Shown one piece after another: positions 4,103-60,698 of a stretch of DNA of 64,000 bases. This DNA comes from Stropharia rugosoannulata (Eukaryota > Basidiomycota > Agaricomycetes > Agaricales > Strophariaceae), in the NCBI GenBank assembly GCA_028532985.1, contig JANCIK010000002.1:1054001-1118000 (forward strand), written 5' to 3'. The notes below the pieces were generated by a model that saw only the letters and a program-made list of their open reading frames with translations, did no database searches and was not told the DNA's origin. Position numbers and translations under genes: made by a program. Positions within the stretch are counted from its first letter, which is position 1. Every line of letters starts with the position of its first letter.

Positions 4103-4684
4103 TCGAAACCCTGACTGAGCGCAGCGTCGCGTTCGGCTTTCATAGTCGCTATTAGCTGACGCTGTTCCTCTATCACCTCTTCAGGCGTCTTCGCCGATGT
4201 GCGCTCCTTCAGGAACGCCTTCTTACTCTCTAACTCTTGCTGAAGTGCGCGTATCTGCTCCTCATATGCCTCGTCCAAGGAACTGGCCGGTTGGTACATC
4301 TGCGAGTATACCATGCTAGGAGGCATACTCATGTACGAGGGATGGACGGGTGCCATATATGCTTGCTGCGCGGGCTGCCCGTTCTTCTTATGCCATTCGT
4401 CAACGCGCTCTTTGATCGCGCGCGAAGGGTCCCAAGGTATCGATGACCCATCGGGTAGCTGTAAGCGCCCCGCCTCCGTGATGACAATCCTCCCCGCTGA
4501 CAAGTCTTGCTGCCTTACGATGCACTCAGCAACCACATGTCCCGTCTGCTTGCAGTAGAAGCAGCGAGGCTCCGGGCGTTGTTGGTATTGGAAGGGCCTA
4601 GGTGGCGGTCCACCGAAACCCGGTGCGCTCATGGGCATCATGGGGGCTACTGGTTGTACAGGCACCGACATCGGTGCGGCGCGC
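4099..4684 (-). pseudogene. gag of element A, 3' part, cut off by the insertion of element B
   Basis: This is the C-terminal part of Gag. It has one CCHC zinc knuckle (CFYCKQTGHVVAEC, C-x2-C-x4-H-x4-C), a Pro/Met/Tyr-rich stretch and a Glu/Lys-rich C-terminus that probably forms a coil. The frame matches the last third of the uninterrupted Gag at 60699-62651. It ends abruptly at 4684, where the LTR of element B begins; its N-terminal partner is at 16227-17597. The two halves meet at a GCGC run in the intact copy, so this is a simple insertional break without other loss. An apparent open frame that extends to 4719 is only LTR sequence read by chance. Confidence 0.9.
4105..4111 (-). promoter_or_regulatory. 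Candidate -1 frameshift heptamer GGGTTTC at the gag/protease junction
   Basis: Read on the minus strand, G GGT TTC fits the X XXY YYZ rule in the gag reading frame, and the gag stop follows after one codon (GAT TGA). The protease frame is -1 relative to gag, which is the direction such a site gives. The same heptamer in the same place occurs in the second copy (62639-62645). Activity is an inference; I did not evaluate a downstream pseudoknot. Confidence 0.5.
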
Positions 4685-5651
4685 TGTGAGGGGCTGGGGC
4701 TGGCCCCTCGTGAAAACATGAAAAACCATAAGGTTCAGAACATAGATACACAAGAAGCGACATATCCGCCATAACGATCGGAAACTACTATCGGAAACTG
4801 AAAGAACAAGAAGAAGCACGAAATATGAAGACTGAGATATGAAGATGCAAGTTTATTCGAAGATATGAAATATGTACATGATGAAACAAGAAGACAAGCA
4901 CAAGGAAGACTCAAGATGTTATTACAACTCAATGGCAGATCAAGAAAGACAACAGCATCAGAGCAATATTGGACTTCTGATGCCGATAACATCAGATCAA
5001 TATTAACAATCTGATGTAACTATGGACCCACAAGGGAGTCAATCACATGGAAATACTCATACATACGACCTGGGACATATATGGCAACGGATTCCGACGA
5101 TATGCAAGGGTTTCCGACGACATGCAAGCGTGTGGTAGCAGAAAGCAGAAGTATCTCGATATAAACACAAGGGACATAGGTGTGGAAAGAGGGTCGGAGG
5201 AGATGTGTGTTTAGGGGAGAACATGGAGTTGATCCGGCCGCAGGAAGATCTCTTGTGCTTGGGGGTTTGGTTTCCGAAGATAAGGAAATTTGTGGCCAAG
5301 ATATGAAGCATGCTGTAGTACAGCATGGTTTCCGACGAGATAAAGTCAGCATGGGCGGTCGGATCTTCGTGGATGTATATGGTACGATCTGGGCATGGCA
5401 ACCAGACGGGTATTTAAGGAGTAGAATATCTCTGTACTTCTCCAGCTTCCTTCAGGGTTAAATTCTACCTACACACATCATACCAGTTCGCATCGGAAAC
5501 CATTGTTTAAACCTCGTACACTGGAAGCTCCTTGTTATAAAACAAGTAAAACCTTTTCAACGTGCTATCGTTGTACACACGTTGCCTTCGCACATTGTGA
5601 ACTATAGAGACAGGCTTTTCAGACCAGTCCTACCCAACTTCGCACCTCACA
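4685..5651 (+). repeat. 5' LTR of element B
   Basis: The 967-bp LTR has the short inverted termini TGTGAGG/CCTCACA. A TATA-like TATTTAAG at 5411-5418 is the likely core promoter. A 6+6 bp hairpin (CTTGTT...AACAAG) lies at 5531-5546 in the presumed R/U5 part. The exact 8-mer TCGGAAAC or its complement occurs six times (4778, 4791, 5110, 5270, 5328, 5493), and a one-mismatch copy lies at 5090. Small open frames inside the LTR recur in the other LTR and are not credible genes. Confidence 0.93.
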
Positions 5652-5654
5652 ACG

Positions 5655-5672
5655 TGGAGCCCACCGCGAGGG
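5655..5672 (+). promoter_or_regulatory. tRNA primer binding site of element B
   Basis: Three bases after the LTR, an 18-base segment starts TGG and would pair with the CCA-tailed 3' end of a tRNA. The same 18 bases follow the LTRs of both element A copies. I did not identify the tRNA species. Confidence 0.75.
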
Positions 5673-5841
5673 TCTACAGTTCACAATAGATCCATCTGTT
5701 CCAGACCGTCGGATAACTCGTCAACTTGCTGCAGAATTTGCTATACTCCTACAACCTCCTGAAGCACCCATCAAGAGAAGAAGGAAAAGACCGACACCGT
5801 CAGGAAGCCAAATATCTTCAGTACTCAGCCATATATCGGAA

Positions 5842-7824
5842 ATGGATCACGGAATCGAAGCAAACCCTTTTGAAGTTCAAACCGTGGCGCCCAAAGTCAA
5901 GCCTTACCCAAATCGCAACTCAAAAGATGCTCCATCGTTTACAGGACCCACTACTCCTTTACATCGATACCTAGAGGACATCGAGGAATTATGCAAAGAC
6001 AGGGGAGACACATTGGATATCACACGGATTACAAAAACCCTGTGGTATGTGGATTACCGATACCATGAAACATGGAAGAATATTCTAGATGAAAACAAAT
6101 CCTGGAAGGAGAATAAACAAACATTACTGGAATATTTCCCTGGGTTGGATTCGCTCTACAAATACTCAGTCAACGATCTGCATAAATTAATACAGAAGTT
6201 TTCGAGCAAACCCATGGATAATCAAGAACTTCTAGCAGAATATCATTGTGAATTCATGATTATAGCTACTTATCTGGAGAAGGAGCAATTATCATCAAGA
6301 GACGACATCAACAGAAACTATGTTCTAGGTCTTCCAAAAGAATTCAGGGCGAAGGTTCTTACTCAATTAACGGCTGAAGACCCGAAGCGGAAACCGGGCC
6401 TGGTTCATGATTATCTTCAAGTTAATCGAGCGGCTCGATATGTTCTTCAAGATAACGCTTATTCTGACAGGTATGGCCTTGAAGACACACCTCGTGAACG
6501 GACGAAAACCGAAGAAACTGCTCTTGAGCTCATGCTAAGGAAAATGACATCGGAATTAGGATCAATAAAGATGTTCATGCAAGGCCAACCTAATACATCT
6601 TTTCCGACGCAAGAAAGACCTATGTATCGTTCCACTCCGCGCTACGCCCCTGGTTGCTTGTTTTGCGGAGACATTAATCATATTATGAGGTCTTGCAACT
6701 TGCCGGATGAATTTATAAACAAGGGAATCATCAAACAAGGACCGAATGGTAGATTCACAATGGCTAACGGCGACTGGATCAATGGAACTGGAACAATAAA
6801 AGAAAGGATTGAAAACATCCCCAAACTGCAACGTGCTCGAGATGGACCCCCTCACCTGTCGCCAGCTACCACGATGATGTTTTCCTGTACTACGGCTGAA
6901 ACCTTGTTTAATTCTTCCAGTAAACTCGAAGAAGTCGACAAAGAAATCGGTGAGGTTTATCTGAAGACAAGGTCTTCGCCCCAAGACAAACCTGGACCAG
7001 GCAAAAACTCATCTGCTTATGAAAAAATCCCTGAAGTCGTGATTACCGAAAGGAAATCAGAAAAGACAATACCAGAAGCACATGTAAGATTTGAACCGGC
7101 TAAAGGACCCCAGTACAGATTCACCTCAGGAGCGGAAAATCTGGATCTTCTTAAGAAAGTCATATCAAAATCTTTGGATGCAGAAATTACTATTTCTCAA
7201 AGAGAGTTGTTGGCTATTTCTGGAGAACTTCGGAAATATTTCAAGGAAACAACTACACCAAAGAGAATTCCGACGGTTAGCTATGTCCATGGTGAAGAAA
7301 ATGAAGGGTCTTATGTGCTACAATTCGCTTCGGAAAATGGGCCATCAGATAGAGTCCTTTTGACGGCTTCTCCCCTTATGAAACTCAGGGTGATACCCGC
7401 GTTGCTAAACGGTGAATTCACGGCGGAATGTGTCTTGGACCAAGGATCGGAAATCATGGCAATGGACAAGCGCATATGGAGGAAACTGTCTCACAATATA
7501 AACCCAGAAAGGAAAATATATATGGAGTCTGCCAACACGGAATTATCGCAAACGGATGGAATGTGCGAAAACCTTAAAATCACTATTGGAAGCCTTGAAC
7601 TCTATTTTCAAGTACATGTCGTGGATAAAGCCCCTTTTCAAGTTCTGATAGGACGACCGTTCTTTGTGTATACTGGATGCACTACTAGGGATTATACAAA
7701 TGGCGACCAGGAAATCACTTTGACTTGCCCCAACACGCAGAAGGTGGTTACTATTCCAACTCAGCCCAGGAATAAGGTTTCCGAAAAAGAGTCAGCGGAT
7801 TTTCCAGAATCCCGACTGAATTAA
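5842..7824 (+). CDS. Gag-protease polyprotein, element B
   Basis: A 660-residue frame. The start is well supported: from the presumed transcription start near 5440 to 5841 there is no ATG at all, so this is the first AUG. The N-terminal half has a retrotransposon Gag character, with a helical, charged region similar in layout to Gag of element A. A CCHC knuckle (CLFCGDINHIMRSC) lies near residue 272. The C-terminal part is a retropepsin-like domain with VLDQGSEIMAMD near residue 532 and a second half ending in LIGRPFF. The active-site triad reads D-Q-G where D-T-G or D-S-G is usual. Unlike element A, gag and protease are fused in one frame. It ends 14 bp before pol. Role: particle protein and precursor processing. 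Confidence 0.9.
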   Translation: MDHGIEANPFEVQTVAPKVKPYPNRNSKDAPSFTGPTTPLHRYLEDIEELCKDRGDTLDITRITKTLWYVDYRYHETWKNILDENKSWKENKQTLLEYFPGLDSLYKYSVNDLHKLIQKFSSKPMDNQELLAEYHCEFMIIATYLEKEQLSSRDDINRNYVLGLPKEFRAKVLTQLTAEDPKRKPGLVHDYLQVNRAARYVLQDNAYSDRYGLEDTPRERTKTEETALELMLRKMTSELGSIKMFMQGQPNTSFPTQERPMYRSTPRYAPGCLFCGDINHIMRSCNLPDEFINKGIIKQGPNGRFTMANGDWINGTGTIKERIENIPKLQRARDGPPHLSPATTMMFSCTTAETLFNSSSKLEEVDKEIGEVYLKTRSSPQDKPGPGKNSSAYEKIPEVVITERKSEKTIPEAHVRFEPAKGPQYRFTSGAENLDLLKKVISKSLDAEITISQRELLAISGELRKYFKETTTPKRIPTVSYVHGEENEGSYVLQFASENGPSDRVLLTASPLMKLRVIPALLNGEFTAECVLDQGSEIMAMDKRIWRKLSHNINPERKIYMESANTELSQTDGMCENLKITIGSLELYFQVHVVDKAPFQVLIGRPFFVYTGCTTRDYTNGDQEITLTCPNTQKVVTIPTQPRNKVSEKESADFPESRLN

Positions 7825-7838
7825 CACGGTCGGGAAAG

Positions 7839-10800
7839 ATGTTCATGTTAAATATAGTGCACGAGAAACGACATGAACAGCACAAGAAGGATATTCCTTC
7901 AGCACTATCATTTGGACGATTTATAACTCCCTTATTCGCAGCAAGAATAGATGATGAAAGAGGATCATCATATCACGAAATATACCCTACTAATTTTAAT
8001 TTTGAAGTTTCGGCCAGATTTATCGGCCAATGTTTACAGAAGACTTATGCTTACTCTTTTCAACAAAGAGCACTAATAATAAAAGCCAGGAAAAAATATA
8101 AACCTGTGGCGAGACGGACGTTTCCTGTGTCAACTACGCTTCCCGAAGAATATTGTGTTATTAGAAGAATTCCATCGGATCCTCTGGCTAATATGAAACC
8201 GTTACCTTTTAAAGTGGACCATATTGAACCAGGAATACGCTATACTAAAGAACGAATGGACGCCTGGAACATAAATGAAGATGGCTTCTTGACACCGGAT
8301 GAAGCTCGTCTAGTTCAATGGATCATTAAAGAACATGAGATGGGATTCGCCTGGAATGAGATGGAGAAAGGTGCCTTCAGAGAAGACTATTTTGAACCAC
8401 TAAAGATACCCGTTGTACCGCATGAACCATGGGCGGAAAAACCGATACCGATACCTCCAGGCATCGCTAAAGAAGTCACGAGAATTTTTCAAGATAAAGT
8501 CGCAAGCAAAGTATATGAACCTTCTAGTTCACCTTATCGGTCCAGGATCCTATATGTGCCAAAGAAAAGCGGAGCAATACGGGTAGTGCATGACCTGAGA
8601 AGGTTGAATGCAGTAACCATAAAAGACTCAGCTCTACCGCCAGTTGTAGAACTCTATGTGGAATCTTTCGGTGGAAGAACTATCTATGCCATGTTTGATT
8701 TGTTTGTAGGATTTGACCATCGGGTTCTTCATCAAGATTCAAGGGATTATACTACATTCTCTTCGCCTATCGGAAACCTGAGATTGACCCGTCTACCACA
8801 AGGATTTACAAATTCGGTTCAAGTCCAACAAGGAGATGTGTCATTTATCCTGGAGCCGGAGATTCCTGAATTTACAGCACCTTTTGTGGACGATGTACCG
8901 GTCAAAGGACCACGATCTTATTATCAAGATGAGAATGGGGTCTATGAAACGGTTTCCGAAAACCCTGGTATCAGAAGATTTGTCTGGGAACACTTGAACA
9001 ATGTACATCGCATTATTCAAAGGATACAGCATGCGGGAGGAACCTTCAATGCCTCGAAATCCTTTTTGGCTGTACCAAGAATTAATGTTGTTGGCCATAT
9101 GTGCAGCATTCAAGGAAGGACGGTTGATGAGTCAAAAGTCAGAGTTATCAGGGATTGGAAACCTTGTGAAAACTTGACAGAAGTTCGCTCATTCTTGGGA
9201 ACATTGGGTGTAATGCGTATCTTTATAAAAGATTATGCAATGCATTCAAGACCGTTAACTGAACTAACAAAGAAGGACGTTGAATTCACATGGGGACAAA
9301 GAGAACAAGAAGCAATGGACAGTTTAAAGTGTCTCTTAATTCAGTCTCCAGCATTAACGGCATTGGACTATGAATCCGAAGGACAGATAATAATGGAGGT
9401 GGACTCAAGCAACATAGCTGTGGGTTTTATTTTATCTCAGGTTAAAGAAGACGGAAAGGAACATCCTGCGCGGTTTGGTTCTATAACTTGGAACGAAAGA
9501 GAATCAAGATACTCACAAGCTAAGATCGAGTTATATGGCCTATTTCGCAGCCTTAGAGCGTATCGGATATACCTGGTTGGAGTGGAAAACTTGATAGTCA
9601 GGACTGATGCGAGTTACCTCAAGGGAATGTTAAACAACCCCGATATACAACCTAATGCTACGATAAATCGCTGGATAGCCGCCATACTTTTGTTTGACTT
9701 CAAGCTAGAACACGTCCCTGGAAAATCACATTCACCAGACGGTTTGTCAAGAAGGAGACGATCAGAATTAGATCCTCAAGAAGATTCCGAAGAAGAAGTA
9801 GAAGACTGGATCGACAGGGCATGTGGCTTCGGAATCTGGGTCTTAAACAAAAATGACGATCGGAAATTCACTCACATGTCCATGGTACAGAAGAAAATAT
9901 CGGGATCGTCTTTGTCTTACAAGGCTATGGTACTTATTGCAGCTATATCGGTACCTCACCGTTCGGAAATTACTACAACGCTTAAGTTACCGGTTTCCGA
10001 CAGAGGAGCTGACATGGATGAGGAATTAAAGAAGGTCAAAGAATTTCTAGGCGACCCCGAAAGACCCGCATGGATTCGCACAAGAAAGGAGTACGACTGC
10101 TTCCTCAAGAAAGTAAGGCAATTCTTCATACTGGACGGAAAACTATGGAAAAGGTCCGACGATGGTGAACATAAACAAGTGGTACAACAAGAAGATAGGC
10201 TTCGGATACTCCAAGAAGTACACGATAACTTAGGACATAAGTCTTATTTTACTGTGTGGAATAGGCTCACGAAGCGTTTTTGGTGGCCTAACATCAGTAA
10301 TGATCTTACGTGGTATTTGAAGACTTGCGATATATGTCAGCGACAGTCAAGGGTAAAGAACCTCATTCCGCCAACGGTAGCTCGTCCATTGTCGCTATTT
10401 GTCAAGGTTCATGCGGATACTTTCTTTATGCCCAAAGGAAAAGGGGGAAAACATCTCTGTCTTCATCTACGATGTTCACTTTCGGGAATGCCTGAAGTTC
10501 TGGCTGTAGCATCGGAAAACCATACGGTTATAGGAGAATTTCTGTTGGATGTTATGTCGCGATGGGGAGCTATGGCTATTATCGTGACAGACAATGGTAC
10601 ACCTTGGGTTAAAGCCGTGAACTATTTGGCGGAAAAATATGGAATCTACCACATCAGAATTTCGGGATATAATTCGCAGGCGAACGGCTTGATTGAAAAA
10701 CGACATCTCGATGTTAGGGAAGCAATAGTCAAGACTTGTGAAGGCGACTTATCAATATGGCCACTAATTCTCCGATTTGTTTTATGGGCTGAACGTGTTA

Positions 10801-11375
10801 CAGTACAAAAATCAACTGGTTATACTCCCTACTATATCGCGCACGGAGTGGAACCATTATTCCCATTTGACATCACTGAAGCGACCTTCATGTTTCCCGA
10901 TCAAGTTGAAATGATTTCCGAAGAAGAGCTAATAGCACGAAGAGCTATAATGCTGCAGAAGCGACCGGAAGATCTTGAAAGGGTCAAGGACAAAGTGGAG
11001 CAAGCACGGCTGAGGCAAGCTCGTTATTTTGAGCAATACAATAAGCATCGCATCGTGTTACAAGATTTCGCACCAGGTACTTTGGTCCTAGTCAGAAATT
11101 CACCAGTTGAAAAATCACTTGATCGGAAAACAAAACCGCGATACTTTGGGCCTCTAATGGTGTTACGACGAACGAAAGGGGGGTCTTACATCTGCGCTGA
11201 ACTCAGTGGAGCCGTATCCTACAAGAGATTCGCCGCATATCGCCTAATACCTTATATATCAAGAGAACCGCTTGAAATCCCATGGGAACTATTGTCTCAA
11301 CCCAAGGATCTAATTGAAGGCATGGTACGCGAAGAGGTACCTGAGGACTCGCAAGTGGCGCCTGATGATGAATAA
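7839..11375 (+). CDS. Pol polyprotein (RT, RNase H, integrase), element B
   Basis: An uninterrupted frame of 1178 residues. The RT has FDLFVGFDHRVL near residue 285 and FVDD near 348. RNase H has EVDSSNIAVGF near 520, IELYGLFRSL and RTDASYLKG near 587. The integrase has an HHCC finger (HDNLGH...CDICQ, about 795-835) and a D,D-x34-E type core (HADTFF about 859, TDNG about 917, LIEKRH about 952). A C-terminal module with KPRYFGPLMVLRR resembles the GPY/F region. Order RT-RH-IN places it in Ty3/Gypsy. It sits in another frame than gag-protease, 14 bp downstream of that stop. I see no frameshift heptamer, so it may use reinitiation. It appears intact. Its segments closely parallel pol of element A, so both belong to one lineage. 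Confidence 0.93.
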   Translation: MFMLNIVHEKRHEQHKKDIPSALSFGRFITPLFAARIDDERGSSYHEIYPTNFNFEVSARFIGQCLQKTYAYSFQQRALIIKARKKYKPVARRTFPVSTTLPEEYCVIRRIPSDPLANMKPLPFKVDHIEPGIRYTKERMDAWNINEDGFLTPDEARLVQWIIKEHEMGFAWNEMEKGAFREDYFEPLKIPVVPHEPWAEKPIPIPPGIAKEVTRIFQDKVASKVYEPSSSPYRSRILYVPKKSGAIRVVHDLRRLNAVTIKDSALPPVVELYVESFGGRTIYAMFDLFVGFDHRVLHQDSRDYTTFSSPIGNLRLTRLPQGFTNSVQVQQGDVSFILEPEIPEFTAPFVDDVPVKGPRSYYQDENGVYETVSENPGIRRFVWEHLNNVHRIIQRIQHAGGTFNASKSFLAVPRINVVGHMCSIQGRTVDESKVRVIRDWKPCENLTEVRSFLGTLGVMRIFIKDYAMHSRPLTELTKKDVEFTWGQREQEAMDSLKCLLIQSPALTALDYESEGQIIMEVDSSNIAVGFILSQVKEDGKEHPARFGSITWNERESRYSQAKIELYGLFRSLRAYRIYLVGVENLIVRTDASYLKGMLNNPDIQPNATINRWIAAILLFDFKLEHVPGKSHSPDGLSRRRRSELDPQEDSEEEVEDWIDRACGFGIWVLNKNDDRKFTHMSMVQKKISGSSLSYKAMVLIAAISVPHRSEITTTLKLPVSDRGADMDEELKKVKEFLGDPERPAWIRTRKEYDCFLKKVRQFFILDGKLWKRSDDGEHKQVVQQEDRLRILQEVHDNLGHKSYFTVWNRLTKRFWWPNISNDLTWYLKTCDICQRQSRVKNLIPPTVARPLSLFVKVHADTFFMPKGKGGKHLCLHLRCSLSGMPEVLAVASENHTVIGEFLLDVMSRWGAMAIIVTDNGTPWVKAVNYLAEKYGIYHIRISGYNSQANGLIEKRHLDVREAIVKTCEGDLSIWPLILRFVLWAERVTVQKSTGYTPYYIAHGVEPLFPFDITEATFMFPDQVEMISEEELIARRAIMLQKRPEDLERVKDKVEQARLRQARYFEQYNKHRIVLQDFAPGTLVLVRNSPVEKSLDRKTKPRYFGPLMVLRRTKGGSYICAELSGAVSYKRFAAYRLIPYISREPLEIPWELLSQPKDLIEGMVREEVPEDSQVAPDDE

Positions 11376-11634
11376 CAAGTTTCCGACAACGCTTACACAA
11401 CCTATATTTCTTAATGGAGCTTCAACAGTTTCAAGTTCATTTCTTCTCATTTGTTAAATAAACTCTTTTTCTTTTAGGTTATGTTTCTGTTTTTACAAGA
11501 TTATGAAATTATTGCTTTCAAACTTAAATGTGCATGACCAAGACAATTTATTGACTACAAGATACTATGACAATATGGTTTCCGACGAAGGGTGAAGGGA
11601 AATACAACAAGAAGAAATACATATAAATCCCCTT
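11376..11634. other. Convergent gap between sense pol and antisense gene 1
   Basis: An AT-rich 259-bp gap where pol (plus) and antisense gene 1 (minus) end tail to tail. It holds two exact GTTTCCGA motifs (11379-11386 and 11578-11585) and likely 3' ends of both transcripts. No gene is seen. Confidence 0.6.
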
Positions 11635-12630
11635 TTACCTCCTGCGGAATCTGTTGATTTCCCCGGACATTTTACGGATCTCCTCAATACGCTCCATCGA
11701 TAATTCCACCAGATCGCGAAGTCGATTTTCCATGTCAGAGTAATGTCGCAAGTTTCTTTCGCAAAGGCCGTCTAGTTCTTCGAGCCCATTTGCTGGGTCT
11801 GCGGTCGTTTGCCATTCGCGGAAATCCCGCACCAACTGCGTATAGGGTTCATACGATGGTAAACCCTCAATAGGGTTGCTGGAACTGGCGCTGGGACTGG
11901 AACGCGTAATGCCTGTGGAACAAGGTTACCGAAATTTGTTAAAGAAAGGGAATTGTAATTGCTCACCTGAAGTTCCTTCGCCGACATCCTTTGGGTTCAC
12001 GACGTTGGATTCCGTGTACTCGACAACATGTGTCGCATCAAAGAAAGGAAATGGACCGTCATCCTCAATTTGCATAGGGCTAGCTAGCGCTTCGGGGGAG
12101 GTTACTTCGTTGACCGCATCGTTTGCTTCAAGTTCGTCCACGTCTTCGGCCTCGTTGTTCTGGTCGCTGTCGCTCTCGTCATCACTATCTTCTTCGGGGT
12201 TTGGGTGGACTGTGCGCGACCGTTGGTCGTAGGCGAAATCGCTGCCGGCTAATGCACGGGTCAAGTAATCTCCCGGCTGCTGTTTCTAGATTATAGGTGG
12301 TGCCATCAGCAAGAAAGTGACCAAGAAGACAATAAGGAACTTACACATGCGGCGGTATTGTTGCTGCAGTTTTTCTTATCAATCTTGCAGTTGGTGCACG
12401 CTCGGCTCCAACGTGGGGTATATCGCAAAGTGCACATATAGCTGGGGTGGCTCTTGCACCACGAACACCTCTGGATCAATGTTTTTAGAGCAACGGAAAC
12501 TCGATATGTTAAAGTTACTTACTTGGTCGTACTCATACCATCCTTCTGCGAGGCCAAGAATTTGCGGAGCGGCCCAGCGCATGTCAATTTCGTAGGTGGA
12601 AGCGGGACGAGCGGTACGACGAGGAGGCAT
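11635..12630 (-). CDS. Antisense gene 1 of element B: Zn2Cys6-like cysteine-cluster protein, 4 exons
   Basis: Manual reconstruction on the minus strand: exons 12630-12523, 12470-12345, 12285-11967, 11912-11635; introns of 52, 59 and 54 nt with GTAAGT, GTAAGT and GTGAGC donors and AG acceptors. Splicing gives one 276-residue frame. Residues 38-78 hold C-x2-C-x7-C, an 11-residue linker, C-x2-C-x6-C and one more Cys, which resembles a fungal Zn2Cys6 DNA-binding cluster. A strongly acidic stretch follows, and the C-terminus is an amphipathic coil (METs, Leu/Ile heptads). A TATA-like box (TATAAAAA, minus strand) lies at 12694-12701 and a TCGGAAAT at 12731. The likely role is a nuclear DNA-binding regulator encoded by the element; function is inferred, no close family is recognised. 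Confidence 0.75.
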
Positions 12631-13249
12631 GTTTTGAGTAGATGGTGGATGAGGGAAGAAAGAATGGTGAAAGCATGAGTGGAATGGGCAGGGTTTTTAT
12701 ATTCTTTTAGGACCACGGTTCAGCGCGCTTTCGGAAATCGGCTAGCTTTGAATGGGTTCGGCACCATGCGCGGATGGCACTATGAAGAAACCGATAGAAT
12801 GCTGTGGATTCTTCTCTATGACTCGGTCCTATATGCTGGACAATTGGGCTGCCTTTACTGGAACTGCGATAAACTTCGACGCGAATCTTGTTCGGATTTT
12901 CTATTTTTAGGTCGGAAATCACCGTGGCTCATGTTCTGGAAAGCGGCGTTGCCTAATCAAGTATGACGGCATGATGGCGCCGGTTTTATGGTGACATGCT
13001 GTGCTGCTTTAGGGAATGGTGTTACCTCTTTTGTCTGCCGTCGGGTTGTTGTTGCGGCAATGCTCTGGGCCGCCGCGGATTTTCAACTGGCTTTTTCGGC
13101 CGTAATGGCGCATGTGTAGGCTGGGCAGCTTGTTCAGTTTCACTTCGGCATCTTCCTTTTTCATTCGGCCTTTTTCGGCATCGTATGGCAACGTCAAATT
13201 TGTGTGCGGAAATCTATCATAATGGGTTTACATCTATGGGCAGCTGTGT
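12631..13249. promoter_or_regulatory. Upstream region of antisense gene 1
   Basis: A 619-bp gap between antisense genes 1 and 2. It contains the minus-strand TATA-like box at 12694-12701 and TCGGAAAT motifs at 12731 and 12912. Two minus-strand open frames of 62-71 codons are not supported by splice or promoter signals. Probably promoter and 3' UTR space. Confidence 0.45.
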
Positions 13250-13760
13250 CTATGCCTGTTCGGCTTGTTTTTCAATCCAGTCCCTCCATCTCTCCACTCC
13301 ATCTATGGTGAAGTCAGTCTCGCACAAGTAACAGTGGCGGAAACCTTGCGACTGCTTCTCAGCTGCTTTGAGTAGGCTTAATGCCTTATCCTGCTCGCTG
13401 TCTACAAGAACGGCTCCGTATTCACTCATGATCCGGCGAAGCAAGAGTAATGTCCACGATGACCTGGGTCGAAATTGTTTTGCGGATATATAATCTTCAA
13501 AATGGTCATTCTGTGCAGAATATGTATTGTCAATTGGGTCTGATTTCAACAGGACAAGTGGGTCAACTTACAATATAATGGCACATGGCGGCAAGTGTCC
13601 GATGTGTTTCCATCGTGTCTGTTGCGGAATGAGATAGCATTTGATCGGATAACAATTGGTCTATGGTGGGCCGAATGGCATGCTCTAGGACCTGCATGAT
13701 GTCCGTCGGATTCTTCACAGCTGTGGTCAATAACATGGTGAATCGAGTGGTGGTGCTCAT
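13250..13760 (-). CDS. Antisense gene 2 of element B, 2 exons, unknown function
   Basis: Exon 1 is 13760-13572 and exon 2 is 13510-13250. The 61-nt intron has a GTAAGT donor, a CAATTGACAATAC segment that could hold the branch site, and a CACAG acceptor. Joining keeps one frame of 149 residues. The N-terminal half is helical and hydrophilic. The C-terminal half has a basic patch (KQFRPRSSW), a Cys pair (CYLC) and a Trp-rich end (ERWRDWIEKQ). A TATA-like TATAAAG (minus strand) lies at 13792-13798, about 32 bp upstream of the ATG, and TCGGAAAA (minus) lies further upstream at 13881-13888. I do not recognise a family. Without the intron the frame stops at once, which supports the splice model. 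Confidence 0.6.
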
Positions 13761-13902
13761 TTCTGGTGTTTGGACAGACTAGTTGCCTTCACTTTATACA
13801 GAGTTCAGGCGCTGGGCTACTTGGCATTGGACGATCTGGGCGCAGGGCTACATGTCACTTGTCTGGAGATTATCTAGATATTTTCCGACAGCCGGTTGTC
13901 GG

Positions 13903-14391
13903 TTATGGGTCGCCTACTCTGCACACACATGCCTGCTGATACTGGAAGAAAACATCGTCCATGTGTTCCTTGATTTCGGGTATCTCGTGCCCGGTGTATC
14001 CAAATGCCATCGTCATGTATCGCATACGCATTAACACCCTCAATTCGATCATGGTGATTTGCTCGTTAGGCGATTGATGTATGGCTACATGCTGACGACC
14101 ATGCCATGCTATATACTATGATTGTGTTAGGGCGGCACGTCGCCTGGAGAAGTTGCTTACTGCTATAGTTTGTCCTAGGAACAAGAAGGACTGGAGATCG
14201 GTTATGACAGGCTGCAAGTTGAGTGTGTCAAGCTGGAGTATTCGTGTGTATTCGTATTCTAGGGCGTCGACGAAGGGATCAAGGCAATGTTTGAAGACAT
14301 ATGGGATCGGAAATCGCGATCGGAAATTGTTTAGATCGGTGGGCAACTCAAGCACTAAGGATTGAAGATATAGACGCAAAGGTGCCTGCAT
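13903..14391 (-). CDS. Antisense gene 3 of element B, 2 exons, unknown function
   Basis: Exon 1 is 14391-14161 (77 codons) and exon 2 is 14115-13903. The 45-nt intron has a GTAAGC donor, a CCCTAACAC branch-like site and an ATAG acceptor. The joined frame gives 147 residues without a domain I recognise. The N-terminal part is Leu-rich and could form helices; the second exon is Met/His-rich (MRMRYMTM). A TATA-like TATATAAA (minus strand) at 14429-14436 lies about 38 bp upstream and overlaps the last codons of antisense gene 4, so the two genes are packed very closely. Reading exon 1 through the intron stops soon after. Confidence 0.55.
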
Positions 14392-14429
14392 TGTGGGTGC
14401 TATGGAACTATCTACTAGTGCTCTACGCT

Positions 14430-15173
14430 TTATATATCCATCTCTCGCACCGATGTTCGGAATCTGGCATGTGGACGCTGGGAGGGCACGGCCGTTTGAA
14501 GATGAAAGATCGCCGCTGGGATTTCTTCGATATCCGATGTGTCTTCAGGTGTTGCGGCTGGCCTGAATGCTGGCAGGTGTTCTTCAAGGGGGTCTTCGGC
14601 TTTGACGCGGTTTGAAAACTGTATCCACCAGCGACTGGTGCTGTCCAATTCATTAAATTCTTTGAAGTCGACTTGGTTCTCCTTAGTTGTGTCGGCAGTG
14701 TCTTCAGCATATAGCGCCATGAACCGCAGTATGGTCGACCAGTACTCGAATCCTTCATGATCCTCCATCGGAAACATCTCCAGTAAATGCCTGGCACTTG
14801 CGCTTAGGTAACGGCACTCAGGTGGAATCATGCGCTCAATCTCGCGCTCATTTGACGGCCGCATGTTGACGCGAGAGCATAGCAATAAGCGCTGCGCGAT
14901 TATTAGCAGGGTTAGTTGAGAAACGGTTCGAGGGCTTACCATGTGATCAAGGTGATCATGAACGTATGCTTCCACTTGCGCATGGTCGATTATGTTCAGT
15001 TCTCGTACGCTGCGGGTGCAGATGTCCTTGTAGATGGCGAGGCATAGGATTTCATGTTGGTGACGGATGGTCAACGCAAATTCACGCATGGTTGTTGGTA
15101 CAACGAATGCATGGCTTCGGTTTCCTGGAGCAAAACAGAGCGAGCGAAATATTCTTTCTGCTGCGGGGTCCAT
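14430..15173 (-). CDS. Antisense gene 4 of element B, 2 exons, unknown function
   Basis: The start is the ATG at 15173 (MDPAAERIFRSL). An open frame continues upstream into the LTR but the promoter argues for this start: a minus-strand TATA-like TATAAAT at 15206-15212 lies about 33 bp upstream, directly preceded by an exact TCGGAAAC (15214-15221). A 48-nt in-frame segment, 14892-14939, has a GTAAGC donor, CTAAC branch site and GCAG acceptor and is probably an intron; removing it gives 231 residues. Reading through it gives 247. The protein is helical with many Arg/Glu/His residues and no recognised domain. This gene is the most LTR-proximal of the four antisense genes. Confidence 0.6.
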   Translation of the reverse strand: MDPAAERIFRSLCFAPGNRSHAFVVPTTMREFALTIRHQHEILCLAIYKDICTRSVRELNIIDHAQVEAYVHDHLDHMVSPRTVSQLTLLIIAQRLLLCSRVNMRPSNEREIERMIPPECRYLSASARHLLEMFPMEDHEGFEYWSTILRFMALYAEDTADTTKENQVDFKEFNELDSTSRWWIQFSNRVKAEDPLEEHLPAFRPAATPEDTSDIEEIPAAIFHLQTAVPSQRPHARFRTSVREMDI

Positions 15174-15205
15174 GGTGCTTGATGGCGACGACGCTTTTGG
15201 CCAAA

Positions 15206-15221
15206 ATTTATAGGTTTCCGA
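15206..15221 (-). promoter_or_regulatory. Antisense core promoter: TCGGAAAC motif abutting a TATA box
   Basis: On the minus strand the 8-mer TCGGAAAC (15221-15214) is followed one base later by TATAAAT (15212-15206), about 33 bp before the ATG of antisense gene 4. The 8-mer is the same one that is repeated in the LTRs. Regulation through this site is an inference. Confidence 0.5.
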
Positions 15222-15250
15222 CCACCCAGGAGGGTGGTGTTTTAAAAGTT

Positions 15251-15259
15251 GGGGGGAGA
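15251..15259 (+). promoter_or_regulatory. Polypurine tract of element B
   Basis: A run of nine purines (GGGGGGAGA) abuts the first base of the 3' LTR. This is the expected plus-strand primer site of an LTR retrotransposon. Confidence 0.8.
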
Positions 15260-16226
15260 TGTGAGGGGCTGGGGCTGGCCCCTCGTGAAAACATGAAAAA
15301 CCATAAGGTTCAGAACATAGATACACAAGAAGCGACATATCCGCCATAACGATCGGAAACTACTATCGGAAACTGAAAGAACAAGAAGAAGCACGAAATA
15401 TGAAGACTGAGATATGAAGATGCAAGTTTATTCGAAGATATGAAATATGTACATGATGAAACAAGAAGACAAGCACAAGGAAGACTCAAGATGTTATTAC
15501 AACTCAATGGCAGATCAAGAAAGACAACAGCATCAGAGCAATATTGGACTTCTGATGCCGATAACATCAGATCAATATTAACAATCTGATGTAACTATGG
15601 ACCCACAAGGGAGTCAATCACATGGAAATACTCATACATACGACCTGGGACATATATGGCAACGGATTCCGACGATATGCAAGGGTTTCCGACGACATGC
15701 AAGCGTGTGGTAGCAGAAAGCAGAAGTATCTCGATATAAACACAAGGGACATAGGTGTGGAAAGAGGGTCGGAGGAGATGTGTGTTTAGGGGAGAACATG
15801 GAGTTGATCCGGCCGCAGGAAGATCTCTTGTGCTTGGGGGTTTGGTTTCCGAAGATAAGGAAATTTGTGGCCAAGATATGAAGCATGCTGTAGTACAGCA
15901 TGGTTTCCGACGAGATAAAGTCAGCATGGGCAGTCGGATCTTCGTGGATGTATATGGTACGATCTGGGCATGGCAACCAGACGGGTATTTAAGGAGTAGA
16001 ATATCTCTGTACTTCTCCAGCTTCCTTCAGGGTTAAATTCTACCTACACACATCATACCAGTTCGCATCGGAAACCATTGTTTAAACCTCGTACACTGGA
16101 AGCTCCTTGTTATAAAACAAGTAAAACCTTTTCAACGTGCTATCGTTGTACACACGTTGCCTTCGCACATTGTGAACTATAGAGACAGGCTTTTCAGACC
16201 AGTCCTACCCAACTTCGCACCTCACA
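15260..16226 (+). repeat. 3' LTR of element B
   Basis: A direct copy of 4685-5651, of the same length, with one base difference noted by eye. It carries the same six TCGGAAAC-type motifs and the same TATA-like element (15986-15993). It is followed by GCGC, which matches the four bases before the 5' LTR. Confidence 0.93.
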
Positions 16227-17597
16227 GCGCGCAGCCATGACATTGCGAATAATGTCCTCTAATTCCTTCTTACTCGACTCCTTCGACTTTGCCACCATCT
16301 TCTCTACTAACGATAAGGTATCCTTGAAGGAGGCGACGAACCCTTTCAGGTCCTCGATCTCTCCGCGCAGCAAACCAACATCCGCGGCCTCAGTCTTGAT
16401 GGCGGGCACCGGCATAAGTCCATCAGTGCTATCGCGCCCTAGGCTCAGCGTAGTGCTTGGGTTCTTGGTGCGGGCCATTTGTTCCGCCATCTCGGCTACT
16501 TGTTTGAGAGGGTACATGTCCTCGGTGCGCGCTTCTACCGTCACCCCAGTAGGTGCGGTGAACTGTATATTGCGCTCAGTCAAGAACTTGTCGAACGATG
16601 CGCGCGTCACGTAATCAATGTCCAGTTTATTAAACAATCGATCCCTGAACCCCGCAGTGAGACTATTGGTGAAGTAAGTCACCAAGGTATGATTCGCGAG
16701 CAGGGTAGGCGCCTTCGTGAGCTTAGCGGCCTCGGCCAAGAATGCGCGCTTAAAGTCCAGCAACACCTGGAGGTCTTCCTCCGAGATGCGCTGATTCTCC
16801 TTGCAGAGCTTCTTGAGCCGCGCAATGGACCCTGTCTGAATGCTGATCACCTCTGGGTACTCGTTGAGAATCATTTTCTTGAGCTCCGCGTACCCCTTGG
16901 TATCATAACCTGGTAAATTCTTCCACTCCTCCGCCGTCTGCATGGGTACATATTTGGTTACATATCCTCTCTTCTCATCGTCCTCCGTCACCTCCGCGCG
17001 CTTAAACCAATCCTCCAGGTCCTCGAAGTACCGCGGCAGCTCATCGCGCTCTGCAGCAGGATCAAAGCTCGGCGCGCCGCGCGCACCGCGGACTGGCATG
17101 GACATGTCCTTAGGCATAGTTTCTGATTCTCGTGGGGGTGTATTTCGTTCGCTTTCTGAGAGATCTGACAAGTCTCCTTCAAATATATCTCTCGCTACGC
17201 GCTCTGCTTCACTTTCGCTATTTTCCGCCGTGCGCTGCGCGGATGTCTTAGCAGTTCCAAATACTTCCGAGAATGGAGGAGGGGTGTCTTGGGTAGCTTG
17301 GCTATCAGAAGTACCGAATGGTGTGGTTTCAAGTGTAATATCACCGTCCACTAATTGGTCTTCTGATTCAATGCCAGATGGTGGTCCCCAAAATCCACTA
17401 GTCCCTACTCTTAATTCCGAGTCGCTTTCGGTGAGCGCACCTGGAATGCGCTGCGCTAATCCCTGAGTCTCGATCTGCAACTGCGCTTCCTCCCTCGCTC
17501 TTTTCTTTGCTTTTCTGTCTCGCGTCGGTGTAATTACCAACGGCTCTACCAGCTCAGCGTCTTTCTTGCTCCTCGTGGTTCTCTCGCGTGAAGGCAC
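16227..17597 (-). pseudogene. gag of element A, 5' part, cut off by the insertion of element B
   Basis: This is the N-terminal two-thirds of Gag: a basic start, a Ser/Glu/Pro-rich acidic region, then the folded Gag core (ELPRYFEDLEDWFKRAEV and on), ending at the element B LTR. The frame has no in-frame ATG until 17117-17115; the first codon of the usual open frame reads GTG, so the real initiator may be a near-cognate codon further upstream or the ATG at 17117. The same feature is seen in the intact copy. No frameshifts or stops lie within the fragment, so the break is solely due to element B. Confidence 0.88.
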
Positions 17598-17781: not shown

Positions 17782-18991
17782 TGAGAGGTCTACTGCGTAG
17801 CTAGACTCGAAATCACGAAACACAACACACACACACACACCCAGCGGAGCGAGATCCTATCTTTTAGATCGAGCGAACGCCCTCAACTAAACGGCTAGTA
17901 TAATCTTTGCTCTGCTCTGGTTCCCGGTCTGGGCGTGCGATGCGCGCACCTCGTGTCCTCTAGTCTTTGTAATAGCAAGTAGTGCCTGCAAGTTCGTTTG
18001 TAAGGAGGGGTTTAATTCTAGTAAATCTCGGATAGAGCCCGGTTGCTAGTGGCGTGCGCTAGGCAAAATGATAAATGAAATAAGTTGTTTTAGCGAACGG
18101 CTTCGCTGCGCGCACTTCCGGGTCCGGTGACCTCGTGCGATGCGCGGACTCTCCAAAGTCCAACAATCCAAGACTCTCCAAAGTCTTTCACCCGGCGGTG
18201 CAGTCTCACAGTCTAAACACTACAGTGCGAGTTTCCGTACACGGTTGTACTGACTCCTCACTGAGCTCTCCAAAATGACCCGGTGGCCAGAAGCTATCCA
18301 AAACTCCTATGATTCACAAATACTTCACAGTTAAAACCCTAACAAAAGCTAAACACAGCCCGCTGACGGCCTGGGACAGAACCCAGCACACAGATCTAGT
18401 GGGTAGACAATTGCTTAAATTACTATAGACAAGGATACAGGTTTATATGCGATGCGCGCATGTGTACTAATAATAAGGTAAAGTAAATACTAGCAACGCG
18501 CCAAAGGTCCGCGCGCATCCGGGCTTCCCTTCAAGTGTCCCGATCCCTTGGCATTCGCTGCGCGCATGTCGTTCGTTCCCTCGGGCTTTTGCGCGTCTCT
18601 TTTGATGCGCGCCGCCACGGTCACATGATGTGTGGACTTAGGCAAATTCTGCCTTTGCGATGCGCGCACATGAGATGCGCGCACAGCCCTTCACACCGCC
18701 CTTAGTACTCGCTCAGCTGTACTCACACCGCACTCCGCTGGTGCTTAACCGTTCTACGCCTCTTCAATCGCTCGCACGGATGACCAGACTATGCACTTTA
18801 GACTGTGCAGCTCGCTGACCGATCCCTCTCGCAATACGGTGCGCGCAGGCGCTTGTAGTCATAAAGCGCGCTGATAGCTATAGACTACGAGTCAGGCTTC
18901 ACTCTAGTCCCTCTGTGTTTTCCCACGCGCAGCTATTCCACCAATGGGACTTTGGAATGTTTACACCCGTAGCCAAAAAGCAGCCCTGTCA
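17782..18991 (-). repeat. 5' LTR of element A (minus-strand orientation)
   Basis: About 1,210 bp, starting TGACAGGG (at 18991) and ending CTCTCA before the primer site. The ends were defined by comparison with the copy at 59300-60514. A TATA box (TATAAAC, minus strand) lies at 18441-18447. The palindrome TGCGCGCA occurs seven times (17941, 18107, 18453, 18559, 18661, 18676, 18840). A short (CA)n run lies near 17825. The LTR interrupts the 3' end of gene Z. Confidence 0.85.
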
Positions 18992-20512
18992 ATGTTGGCG
19001 GTGTGCTCCGTGGGTACGGATGTCTCTGGAAGAACCTCAGGTTCTTGCTCCGGGATGCCTGTACTTTCGGAGCCCACATCGGGCGCAATGATCTCCTCGG
19101 GGTCGACCGATCTAATAGGACCATTGTCGGGTGCATTTGCCTTTGAAGGCTCGTTTTCTGGCCAGGGACTGGGTGGCACCCGTGATGTGCACGTTGATAA
19201 ATTGCCGTGCTCGTCCGTATTTGAAGGGTCTGGGATGGCCACCTTGTCGTGTTCTTGAGCTCGGGTGGGGGTCATTGACACGTCCATATCCTCTTCTGTC
19301 GGTGGGGGGATCGCGTATTCATCCAGGGCATCTTGGGCTTGAATGTCCGGGACCATATTGGACGCACTTTCAGAGTCAGTCAAGATGACGCGGCTTCGGA
19401 CCGACCTCCACGATGCGCCGAGTCACCGCGCCGCTGAGCATCCCACTTTTGTCGCAATTTGAGATATTGCCTCAAAGTTATTGTTTACTTGCTGGGCTAT
19501 TTGATGCAAGCGTTTTCCTTGACTGACTTGTTCGTCCATAACCTGCGAAATATCGTCCAAAACCGCTCAAACGTCCACCAGTGTTTTCACCAATACTTCA
19601 CCCAGTGTCGATGGCATGGATTCCGATGTTTTGCCGTCGAAATATTCTTCAAGTGGCTTAAGGAAATCTCCCAGCTGTGTGCTAAGGCCAATGTCGGACA
19701 AGCCGGGTCGGGGCCGAGCTGAAGTAGATGGTCGCGCCGGCCTGGATTGTTCTACCTCTTTCTTCGTCGTCCTTGGTTGCCTGACTGGTGGTTTCTTGTT
19801 GGGTCTAGACTGGGTCCGTGGAACCCACTCGGTAGCATCTTCCCCCTCCTCGATTTCTTCGCCCTCGTCGGTCATGTCCGATTCGGAGTCGGTCATCGGT
19901 GAGCTGTCATAGCCGTCGTCTGTTATGACGTTGGTCTTCATCGTTCCACTAACTTGAGCATCATCGACCTCGCACTTGACTTTCATTTTCTTGCAATGCA
20001 TACAGGCGATAAGGCCTCCACGCTGCTTCTCGTATTTCAAGCGCTGGTTGAGGGTATGCTTATCAGGATAAAAGCAGCCGTGAGATCCCCTTGCGCAGCG
20101 TTTGCAACGTTCATGGGCGGCAACAATACGGGAGTGCCTCCGGGCCTTCGCCCTCTCCAATGGCGCGTAGTCGGGTGCGTTGTCATCGTCAGCGGTCGTG
20201 TCATTCCACTTCTGTCGCATTGACTTCCTCGTAATACGAGACATACGCCTCGGAACCTCTGGCTCGTGGCTGGTGCTGGCATTTGCAATCCAAACTTCAG
20301 GTTTGACGTTTCGTTTGGGCGCCCGACTAATTTGTTTCTTGTGTGGAATCACAATGTCGACGGTTCCGTCCACCATTTCGACGTCATGCTCCTCTCCCTC
20401 TGGATCCTGTACTTCGTCTGCCTTTGCGGACTCAATCGGCAGTCTCGGAGGGGTATGGCTCGGAGGGCCGACGACCTTCACCGGAGTCGGCGCCGTCAGA
20501 GGATTTGTACTA

Positions 20513-20557
20513 CCTCCGACTTGTGTACCTCCGACTTGTGTACCTCCGACTTGTGTC
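20513..20557 (-). repeat. Three 15-bp tandem repeats within gene Z
   Basis: Three near-perfect copies of a 15-bp unit encode the (G)TQVGG repeats near the start of the fifth exon. They are in frame and probably length-variable. Confidence 0.8.
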
Positions 20558-20649
20558 TCGTTTTCGTCCCGGTCGTCCTCCGAGCCAACAGTCGGCTTCA
20601 ATTTAAACACCTATCAAGCTCGTTAACAAATGTCTGAGTACGATCCGTA

Positions 20650-21973
20650 CTCGTGCTCATCAAAAGTGATGGGAAACATGTGATTTGCATGCACCCATTT
20701 CTCCTCGCCCTTAAACCATTTTCCTCATATCTCACGAAAAGCTATAGTGTAGTGCACAAATTTTTGAAAAGTAATTGATATATGTACATACTATGTATCT
20801 AGAGCTTAAAATCGAGTATGACCACCTTTTGCAGCCTTGACAACTTGAATGCAATCAGGCATCCTAAAAATATGCTTGTTAATGTCGAAGATGGGTAAAT
20901 TCTCCCATTCTTCGAGAATGGCCTGGCGAAGCTTGTCAACAGTTGTTGGAGCATGGGAACGTGCTCGCAGGCAATTTTTAAGCTCCAGCCAAACTGGCTC
21001 AATGGGGTTGAGATCTGGAGAATTTGGTGGATGGAACATGAGGGGAATGTTATGATCATTAAACCACTTTAATGTCGATTTTGCTCAATGTGAAGGGGCC
21101 CCATCTTGCTGGAATTTTACCCCTGGTCGCAGTGCTTCCATATCTTTATAAAACTGTGTCAAAACTCCTTCCAATACTTGTGTCTGATACCGAGAAGTAT
21201 TCATCCCTCCACCTTTTCCTCCTGGATATTCCAACACCAGAATTGGTCCCTTACGGCCTTCAGCAATGCATGCCCAGACCATAACTCTCACAGGAGACTG
21301 TTTGAATGTCGGTATCAAGCAGTTTTCCTTGTATTCTTCATCTGGGCGTCTAGTAACGTAGATTCTTCCGCAGTCATCACCGAGATAAATATAGCACTCG
21401 TCTGACCAAATGCAGCGTTGCCAGTCCTTCCACGAGAAAGCCTTGTAAGACTGGGCCCAATGCATGCGCAGTTGTTTATGACGCTTCGTGAGAAATGGGA
21501 CCTTCCGAGCAACACGATGGTGCAAGCCTGACCTTTCGAGAACGCGAGAAACTGTTGAATAACTGACTTTTGGGTCCATATTGTTTCCAAGCTCGGAAAA
21601 ACCTGCATGCCGGTCTTTGAGTGCATTTCGAGTAAGTAATTGTTTTCCCTTCTCGGTAAGCTTCTCAGGACGGCCAGAGCGCGGGAGGTTCTCTGTTGAG
21701 CCAGTGTTTTGGTAGCGCTTCCAAATCCGGTCTCCGCTTGAAGACGAAATTCCAACAAGTCGGCTTGCTTCACAAGGTGTTTTCCCAGCAATTATGGCTC
21801 CGATGAGTTGGTTCTTTTTTTCAGATGATATTTCAGTGCGCCTAGAAGAGTTTTGTGGCATTAGAAGCTGAGAAGTGGTGGTTTGAATGTCAAGAAGTCA
21901 TGTTGAATTATGTGTGTCTACGACAGGAGCGCTTAAAGTGTCACGTGTTCCCATCACTTTTGATGAGCACGAG
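20650..21973 (-). mobile_element. Tc1/mariner transposon inside an intron of gene Z
   Basis: The 1,324-bp element has 26-bp perfect terminal inverted repeats (20650-20675 and 21948-21973, starting CTCGTGCTCATC) that continue imperfectly, and is flanked by TA on both sides (20648-20649, 21974-21975), the hallmark target duplication. It contains one transposase frame. Removing the element and one TA restores a 46-nt intron with GTGAGT donor, GTTAAC branch-like site and GATAG acceptor. Confidence 0.92.
20806..21861 (-). pseudogene. Tc1-type DD34E transposase with one in-frame TGA
   Basis: The frame starts at an ATG at 21861, with an N-terminal paired-like helix-turn-helix region followed by a GRPxKL-type linker. 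The catalytic residues are visible: WSDE (first Asp), QQDGAPSH (second Asp) and NPIEPVW (Glu), with 34 residues between the second Asp and the Glu. A single TGA at 21085-21087, just after QQDGAPSH, interrupts an otherwise continuous frame of about 351 codons. The codon could derive from CGA. As it stands the product would lack the catalytic Glu and be inactive, but the TIRs are intact, so the copy could still be moved by a transposase from elsewhere. Confidence 0.88.
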
Positions 21974-22775: not shown

Positions 22776-23090
22776 TTTATGATCGGGGTGTGAGCGGAGG
22801 TATGAACAGATAGATGAGGCCAAGGACGGGATGAATGAGTGAGAGGGAGCGGAGGCGCGCGACGCGACGGCGTGGAGAAAAAGATTGTTACAAGTTGAAA
22901 CCGGCAGCGATCCGAATATTTCAACGGCAGCCAAACAGGGCCAAAGTGCGTCATCTGACCAGGATATTGCCGGTATCCTCGGGTGCACTCCGGCATCTCC
23001 CCGGTATCTCCAGCATGTCGGCATACCTCCGACTGGCAATTGATAAATACTGTCCTTTCCAGTTCTTACTTTCGTGTAACCAGTTTCTAA
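22776..23090. promoter_or_regulatory. Shared promoter region between divergent genes Z and Y
   Basis: A 315-bp gap between the head-to-head starts of gene Z (minus) and gene Y (plus). A TATA-like ATAAATA at 23043-23049 precedes gene Y by about 42 bp. The region contains inverted GTATCTCC/CCGGTATC-type GC-rich elements. The part from 22857 on is kept in the inverted copy. Confidence 0.5.
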
Positions 23091-60534: not shown

Positions 60535-60698
60535 GAAGGTTCAGAAATCTCAAGTAGTGTTTCGGGAACTACGGCTTGCGCCTATTACAATAAATTACAA
60601 AAATTTCAAATAAAACGGGGACGAGTAACAAGCGAGGCAAATTTCCTGCGCCTTCATCGCTCGCCGAGCCAGAAGAAGCCAGACCATCCTTTGGAACG

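Follow-up and report, generated by a model that had tools for sequence, protein, structure and literature searches.

Antisense open reading frames (ORFs) situated between pol and the 3′ long terminal repeat (LTR) are known from plant retrotransposons, with gene23 of Grande, RIRE2, Retand and the Tat lineage as examples (PMC7264820, PMC11963269; what is said of cited papers refers throughout to the accessible parts of their texts). A promoter upstream of gene23 has been reported for Grande and a DNA-binding or nuclear role is suspected (PMC7264820, PMC11963269), and the function of antisense extra genes in plant LTR retrotransposons is left undetermined (PMC7264820). HBZ of HTLV-1 is a further antisense retroelement gene, and its product is a nuclear regulator (PMC11963269). 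VANC, an anti-silencing protein of the Arabidopsis VANDAL transposons, has conserved and highly variable regions and goes with a short family-specific word that occurs at high density, mainly in noncoding tandem repeats and in one orientation (PMC5735166); it is also treated in PMC10398659 and in a meeting report (PMC12859917). Here we describe a Ty3/Gypsy element in a 64,000-nucleotide stretch of the Stropharia rugosoannulata genome (contig JANCIK010000002.1, positions 1,054,001 to 1,118,000 of the forward strand; hereafter the window). The element carries a cassette of four minus-strand genes, A to D, between pol and the 3′ LTR, and, so far as the sequence evidence goes, they are functional components of the element, kept under purifying selection.

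HBZ is spliced, starts from the 3′ LTR and encodes a basic leucine zipper protein, whereas the antisense genes described here number four and have internal TATA boxes, a Zn2Cys6-like cluster in A and no Pfam match. The plant Tat-type genes are found in the same place and orientation and are conserved in many copies. The fungal element differs from them in having four genes with five required introns and one optional intron; TRP28 (PF04195, from Retand) was not found in A-D, none of which matches a Pfam family at E values up to 10 or an NCBIfam entry. No word beginning with "intron" was found in the main texts of these two plant sources (PMC7264820, PMC11963269).

The first-pass annotation of the window had proposed four minus-strand genes here; its coordinates are confirmed, and each gene runs uninterrupted from ATG to stop after splicing (Table 1). 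Its proposal that every intron restores a reading frame stands for A, B and C, whose five introns are required, and falls for D, whose intron is a multiple of three and free of stops, leaving D open with or without splicing. Likewise, TATA-like boxes had been placed 30-70 bp upstream; when TATAWA is sought in the 80 bp that precede the ATG, this is correct for B, C and D, and the box of A lies slightly farther out. The computed chance of TATAWA in 55 bp of this DNA is 0.033, and it is somewhat higher for 80 bp. Sense introns tend to be lost from the genomic RNA, whereas splicing of that plus-strand RNA leaves minus-strand introns in place; retrotransposition reporters in laboratories use the same antisense-intron logic. 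As antisense introns are invisible to the splicing of genomic RNA, intron-bearing genes can survive the RNA cycle in this orientation, and we infer that this accounts for the orientation and the intron retention together.

Table 1. Positions of the features discussed, in window coordinates except where a locus elsewhere in the genome is named
Feature	Position	Strand	Details
5′ LTR	4685..5651	+	967 bp, TGTGAGG...CCTCACA; BLAST of LTR pair
gag + protease-like ORF (stop to stop; protease-like part inferred)	5608..7824	+	PF13352 (DUF4100), E 7.3e-9
pol ORF	7776..11375	+	RT_RNaseH_2, RT_RNaseH and Integrase_H2C2 above Pfam cut-off; RVT_1 below
Gene A	11635..12630	-	276 aa; introns 12522-12471, 12344-12286, 11966-11913 (52, 59, 54 nt)
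Gene A, exon 2	12470..12345	-	encodes Zn2Cys6-like cluster; acidic middle and charged C-terminal segment follow
Gene B	13250..13760	-	149 aa; intron 13571-13511 (61 nt)
Gene C	13903..14391	-	147 aa; intron 14160-14116 (45 nt)
Gene D	14430..15173	-	231 aa spliced, 247 aa unspliced; in-frame intron 14939-14892 (48 nt)
TATA box, gene A	12696..12701	-	71 bp 5′ of ATG here, 71-75 across copies; 24/24 copies
TATA box, gene B	13793..13798	-	21/24 copies
TATA box (TATATA), gene C	14431..14436	-	overlaps gene D stop codon; 24/24 copies
TATA box, gene D	15207..15212	-	2 bases from TCGGAAA site 15215-15221; 24/24 copies
3′ LTR	15260..16226	+	BLAST of LTR pair
TCGGAAA sites	4685..16226	20 plus, 15 minus	6 per LTR, 14 in 5652-11375, 9 in 11376-15259
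Hypervariable block	11500..12660		approximately gene A and its 3′ flank
Copies with no cassette match within 12 kb	C1:141287, C12:1643177, C5:703085		reverse transcriptase copies; by position
Copy whose sole cassette match within 12 kb sits behind another copy	C5:708684		reverse transcriptase copy

When the 48 Mb genome was searched at the DNA level with the cassette as query, a full-length cassette was found at 19 places, the window's own included, and four further places cover its first 2989-2996 bases and a diverged end of gene A. These 23, with one copy in two pieces, make up the aligned set of 24 used below; loci L032-L036 stand outside the counts, two of them being the ends of what is apparently a single interrupted copy, two more being deleted copies and the last a relic. 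A reverse transcriptase (RT) at least 94% identical to that of the window element occurs at at least 30 places, with 104 of the 310 candidates scored, and a cassette match lies near 26 of the 30 as judged by position, two of which (C9:2770951 and C6:777631) were assigned with the match 7.6 and 8.5 kb off. The homologues of A-D found in this genome sit in this element family, except for one isolated relic of C. The relic, at L036:3001-3111, is diverged (87% over 111 bp, with two TGA codons in the protein match), and the rest of the element is undetected in the surrounding 6.1 kb. Elsewhere, in G000:C5:693784-710594, the LTR pair word of this family occurs four times at a spacing of ∼5.6 kb, which suggests a run of shortened copies.

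The 24 copies allow constraint on the four genes to be assessed directly. GT-AG splice sites are kept at 72/72 introns of A, 24/24 of B, 23/24 of C and 24/24 of D, and the frame is intact (ATG, no stop or shift) in 15, 20, 19 and 18 of the 24 copies, respectively; in three further copies (L028-L030) A is open but ends beyond the model. The ratio of nonsynonymous to synonymous differences per site (pN/pS), pooled over all pairs with broken copies included, is 0.25 for A, 0.28 for B, 0.24 for C and 0.13 for D, and 0.27 for pol, a value taken from 21/24 copies and inflated by bad stretches. The corresponding median substitution-rate ratios (dN/dS) are 0.16, 0.27, 0.21 and 0.10 for A-D and 0.12 for pol. 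With one copy per group of A sequences, that is, 5 of the 24 copies, pN/pS is 0.24 for A (bootstrap 0.20-0.29), 0.29 for B (0.15-0.51), 0.19 for C (0.09-0.38), 0.09 for D (0.05-0.16) and 0.11 for pol (0.08-0.16). In control frames the pooled pN/pS is mostly 1 to 3 and always above that of the coding frame. The lower control values are 0.64 for frame +1 of B, 0.65 and 0.69 for reverse frame 0 of B and C, and 0.36, 0.35, 0.40 and 0.21 for reverse frame +1 of A-D, which shares third codon positions with the coding frame; because of these values the contrast is clear for A, C and D and modest for B (0.35 vs 0.28).

A chance origin of the ORFs can be rejected on the basis of the kept splice sites, the pN/pS values and the frame controls. 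The first-pass annotation had regarded the set as a multi-gene antisense cargo in a fungal element and not a matter of chance, and the constraint on all four genes, shared by the 24 aligned copies, supports both points; the separate promoters that it had also proposed would correspond to the conserved TATA boxes. "Cargo" is the wrong word, because A-D are common to most copies and constrained and hence are genes of the element. Passive cargo of a single copy is rejected by the presence of the cassette in many copies.

Exon 2 of gene A encodes a cluster of the form C-x2-C-x7-C-x11-C-x2-C-x6-C (residues 38-71, entirely within that exon), which has the Zn2Cys6 spacing C-x2-C-x6-8-C-linker-C-x2-C-x6-8-C and includes basic residues. 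The general cysteine pattern arose in 0/200000 shuffles of the protein, and the cluster cysteines are invariant in 19/19 aligned A proteins (of the 24 copies, the 15 intact ones and L027-L030, with the last exon cut at the end of the window model). Residues 106-145 hold 17 acidic and zero basic residues. Identity between the window protein and four group representatives is 88-97% over residues 1-36 and 37-78, 33-65% over residues 106-185 and 73-91% over residues 211-276. This layout is likely that of a DNA-binding regulator, as judged from the predicted protein. A Zn2Cys6-like pattern, C-x2-C-x6-C ... C-x2-C-x6-C, also occurs outside the element in an ORF at 19567-20610 (minus), for which PF00172 scores E 0.11, below cut-off.

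Gene A is also far more diverged among copies than its neighbors. Mean synonymous divergence (dS) is 0.78 for A, compared with 0.12 for B, 0.12 for C, 0.17 for D and 0.10 for pol, and mean pairwise diversity, taken in 60-bp windows from 11100 to 12840, is 0.11-0.30 within the hypervariable block and 0.02-0.08 outside it, bar 0.11 at 12720. Gene A introns of the window copy differ from those of the four group representatives by 0.24-0.40 in 10/12 comparisons and by 0.11 and 0.07 in the others, and they keep GT...YAG ends in 12/12. Relaxed constraint as the mere source of this variability is rejected, since synonymous sites and introns have diverged too. Distances in A correlate with those in D, C and the LTR at Spearman values of 0.19, 0.17 and 0.15, with B at 0.42 and with pol at 0.28 and 0.35, a comparison from which L017 was left out and in which unrelated DNA in L018, L024, L027, L028 and L031 inflates the values in the pol rows for groups IV and V and in the LTR rows for group III and L031. 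These weak correlations suggest that A types have been reshuffled with respect to the rest of the element. The divergence could reflect either old types kept by selection or donation by recombination from an older lineage.

The element also contains a dense DNA word. TCGGAAA is its most over-represented 7-mer, with 35 occurrences against 2.5 expected, and belongs to a wider consensus of about RTCGGAAACC. Outside the element the window has four sites, all in the 47.8 kb to its right (5.4 expected), and none in the 4.7 kb to its left. The gag ORF holds six sites and the pol ORF nine, with one shared in the overlap and 14 distinct; synonymous-codon shuffles give 1.0 (gag) and 1.1 (pol) and reach the observed number in 0/1000 cases for either, which rejects codon usage as the source. 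Across the aligned part, which contains 23 of the sites, the word is retained in 86% of site-copy cells, compared with 62% for region-matched CpG 7-mers (0/5000 draws, which ignore the shared ancestry of copies); stretches of unrelated DNA count as losses of the motif and equally of the controls. Retention is 88% vs 50% in the cassette (0/5000 draws) and 88% vs 71% in the LTR (7/5000 draws). The site at 15215, beside the D TATA box, is kept in 20/23 copies, and those upstream of gene A, at 12731 and 12912, are kept in 13/23 and 23/23. Genome-wide, two copies of the word in the same orientation lie within 30 bases of each other in 130 cases, compared with 26 for the reversed pattern, and by our own count 68 of the 93 pairs listed with their letters are the exact LTR or cassette pair of this family. 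Zn2Cys6 factors typically recognize CGG half-sites.

Taken together, the set combines protein-level constraint, introns that the antisense orientation can preserve, a likely DNA-binding protein and a dense DNA word, and it turns the question of what antisense retrotransposon genes do into a direct one: does A bind TCGGAAA and switch the element on? We tentatively propose that it may do so, activating or un-silencing its own family. Each of A-D would be transcribed from its own TATA promoter, and the product of gene A would bind DNA through its Zn2Cys6-like cluster and have an acidic region of the activation type. That protein would bind TCGGAAA across the LTRs, gag-pol and the cassette, and binding would activate or un-silence the family, at the LTR promoter as well as at the antisense genes, with B, C and D as possible assistants. 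A fixed cysteine cluster and a fixed word alongside a variable acidic region would point to a changing host partner and not to a changing DNA target. Somewhat more speculative is the possibility that the system serves self-recognition, in which A would read the 35-site address and free or activate only its own family, as a retrotransposon counterpart of VANC of independent fungal origin; other Gypsy families of this genome, such as the neighboring one with its word TGCGCGCA, may have words and readers of their own. VANDAL is a DNA transposon, and expression of VANC causes loss of DNA methylation on its targets. The resemblance to VANC consists of a transposon protein with conserved and variable regions and a dense family-specific word (some pairs of TCGGAAA occur in other repeats), whereas the words here are dispersed on both strands and also lie in coding DNA, 14 of them in the gag and pol ORFs, and are not same-orientation tandem repeats. 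If the proposal is true, this would be the first fungal and the first retrotransposon analogue of sequence-specific anti-silencing, as far as our literature searches show.

Several observations weigh against this proposal. Gene A shares with Zn2Cys6 (Gal4-type) factors the cysteine spacing, basic residues, an acidic region and a CGG-containing candidate site, and yet it goes undetected by PF00172 at E values up to 10, by every other Pfam and NCBIfam model, and in a profile search of the PDB with its cysteine exon as query, for which the structure model is poor (predicted local distance difference test, pLDDT, 51.5). The link between gene A and TCGGAAA is circumstantial: site counts are similar across all A groups, and the word thus fails to change in step with A. 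Retention of the word in pol is unexceptional (83% vs 70%, 137/5000 draws), and the other 25 of the 93 listed pairs include near variants of the family's own pairs and recurrent pairs of other repeats. Against the view of the set as constrained element genes, each of the four genes is broken in 4 to 9 of the 24 copies. Finally, the expectation that other copies carry a constrained cassette holds in the 24 aligned copies and fails in 4 of the 30 RT copies, which by position have no cassette of their own (Table 1) and may be deletion derivatives.

The same facts give room to an alternative that we regard as unlikely, though it is the one to be taken most seriously, namely that A-D are real genes of the element and that TCGGAAA is read by a host transcription or silencing factor, with A-D acting in, e.g., particle assembly, nuclear entry or target choice. 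In its favor, gene A is assignable to no family, the word does not vary with the A groups, and the neighboring Gypsy family has a dispersed word of its own, TGCGCGCA. On this view it would be a coincidence that one element has both a Zn2Cys6-like cluster and a word containing CGG, and the word is unenriched to the right of the element and absent from the left flank.

The divergence of gene A bears on a second alternative, self/non-self or copy-number control, where A variants would be specificity types under frequency-dependent selection and differing types would ignore or exclude each other. A synonymous divergence far above that of the neighbors (dS 0.78) and the weak correlation of A distances with D, C and the LTR, suggesting reassortment, are in its favor; we nevertheless judge it distinctly improbable, as the divergence extends to introns and synonymous sites, for which recombination with an older lineage alone could suffice, and as amino acid change falls mostly in the acidic middle and spares the cysteine cluster. 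Little credence, in our view, should be given to the idea that antisense RNA, and not protein, is what matters, regulating the element through double-stranded RNA with the ORFs secondary: the TATA boxes are conserved and antisense to the genomic RNA, and regulation of this kind has been considered for the antisense ORFs of plants (PMC7264820), but A-D show constraint at the protein level and conserved splice sites. That one element passively captured genes of its host is scarcely credible, for although intron-containing genes resemble host genes and LTR elements can transduce genes (PMC7264820), the homologues of A-D found in the genome sit in this family (with the one C relic), all four are constrained, and an exon-wise protein search of the genome found no single-copy host orthologue with the same intron positions.

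In a search of 5.8 billion proteins that was limited to A and D among the cassette genes, no homologue at E 1e-3 was found among 746 candidates for A and 162 for D; this is weak evidence because the database's share of spliced fungal genes is uncertain. Pol served as the positive control, with 1340 matches among 7992 candidates scored, the nearest 84% identical, and the named relatives among the matches listed are Agaricomycetes. Scans of viral contigs with a pol relative, gene D and pol found no relative. A structure model of unspliced D is helical at low confidence (pLDDT 41.9). No Rfam family matched in 4600-16400, and no tRNA was found in the window.

The element shares LTRs, gag and the RT-RNase H-integrase order with the fungal Ty3/Gypsy elements surveyed in PMC3248453, and that order was confirmed by Pfam with RVT_1 below cut-off. 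"Antisense" was not found in the main text of that survey or in the Laccaria survey PMC3411680, and the first-pass remark of being aware of no described fungal case agrees with our search of the open-licence full-text literature, a body of partial coverage that gives no proof of absence. An env-like third ORF on the sense strand after pol was not found; the four constrained ORFs are all antisense. The two LTRs differ by a single mismatch across 967 bp (BLAST). The element interrupts the gag gene of a neighboring Gypsy element, and a second, uninterrupted copy of that gag at 60594-62651 makes the empty site visible; by comparison with that copy the target-site duplication reads GCGC, and the GC repeat permits 4-6 bp. 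The gag ORF matches an ORF of the neighboring element at 36% over 138 residues.

Related Gypsy families are present in the genome at 51-54% and ∼62% RT identity. One family at ∼62% has an antisense gene, E, of 195 residues (L037:2583-1947) between the pol stop and a 3′ LTR whose edges we place, from repeat matches, at about L037:2620-3353. Two antisense ORFs make up E, and the 49-nt intron that joins them is one of 13 GT-AG alternatives compatible with an open frame; the gene was found at two genome places, too few for a selection test. Gene E has no similarity to A-D detectable by BLASTP (best E value 0.47 between different proteins among A, B, C, D and E). Its existence hints that this Gypsy group habitually carries antisense genes whose identity varies.

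The neighboring Gypsy family has a dispersed palindrome of its own, TGCGCGCA, at 59447-60351, 17941-18841, 1-4684 and 60594-64000, which is dense in the 5′ stretches of that family. In 6958 bases its 7-mer GCGCGCA is found 25 times, where 1.3 would be expected, with a full palindrome counted twice. Two ORFs of the family hold five each, compared with 1.2 in synonymous shuffles, a number reached by 2 and 7 of 1000.

Four diverged paralogous ORFs on the plus strand (27968-29590, 36074-36967, 46173-47219 and 54480-55670) have in common a stretch like ILSHTWLR.TPGDILFHDWANRALPQN, and by eye we take them to resemble HET-type incompatibility genes. The ORFs at 22835-23671 (plus, 278 residues) and 58485-59318 (minus, 277 residues) are nearly identical, lie ∼35 kb apart and are probably two copies of one repeat. 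An ORF at 21085-21897 (minus) presumably resembles a Tc1/mariner-type transposase, again by eye.

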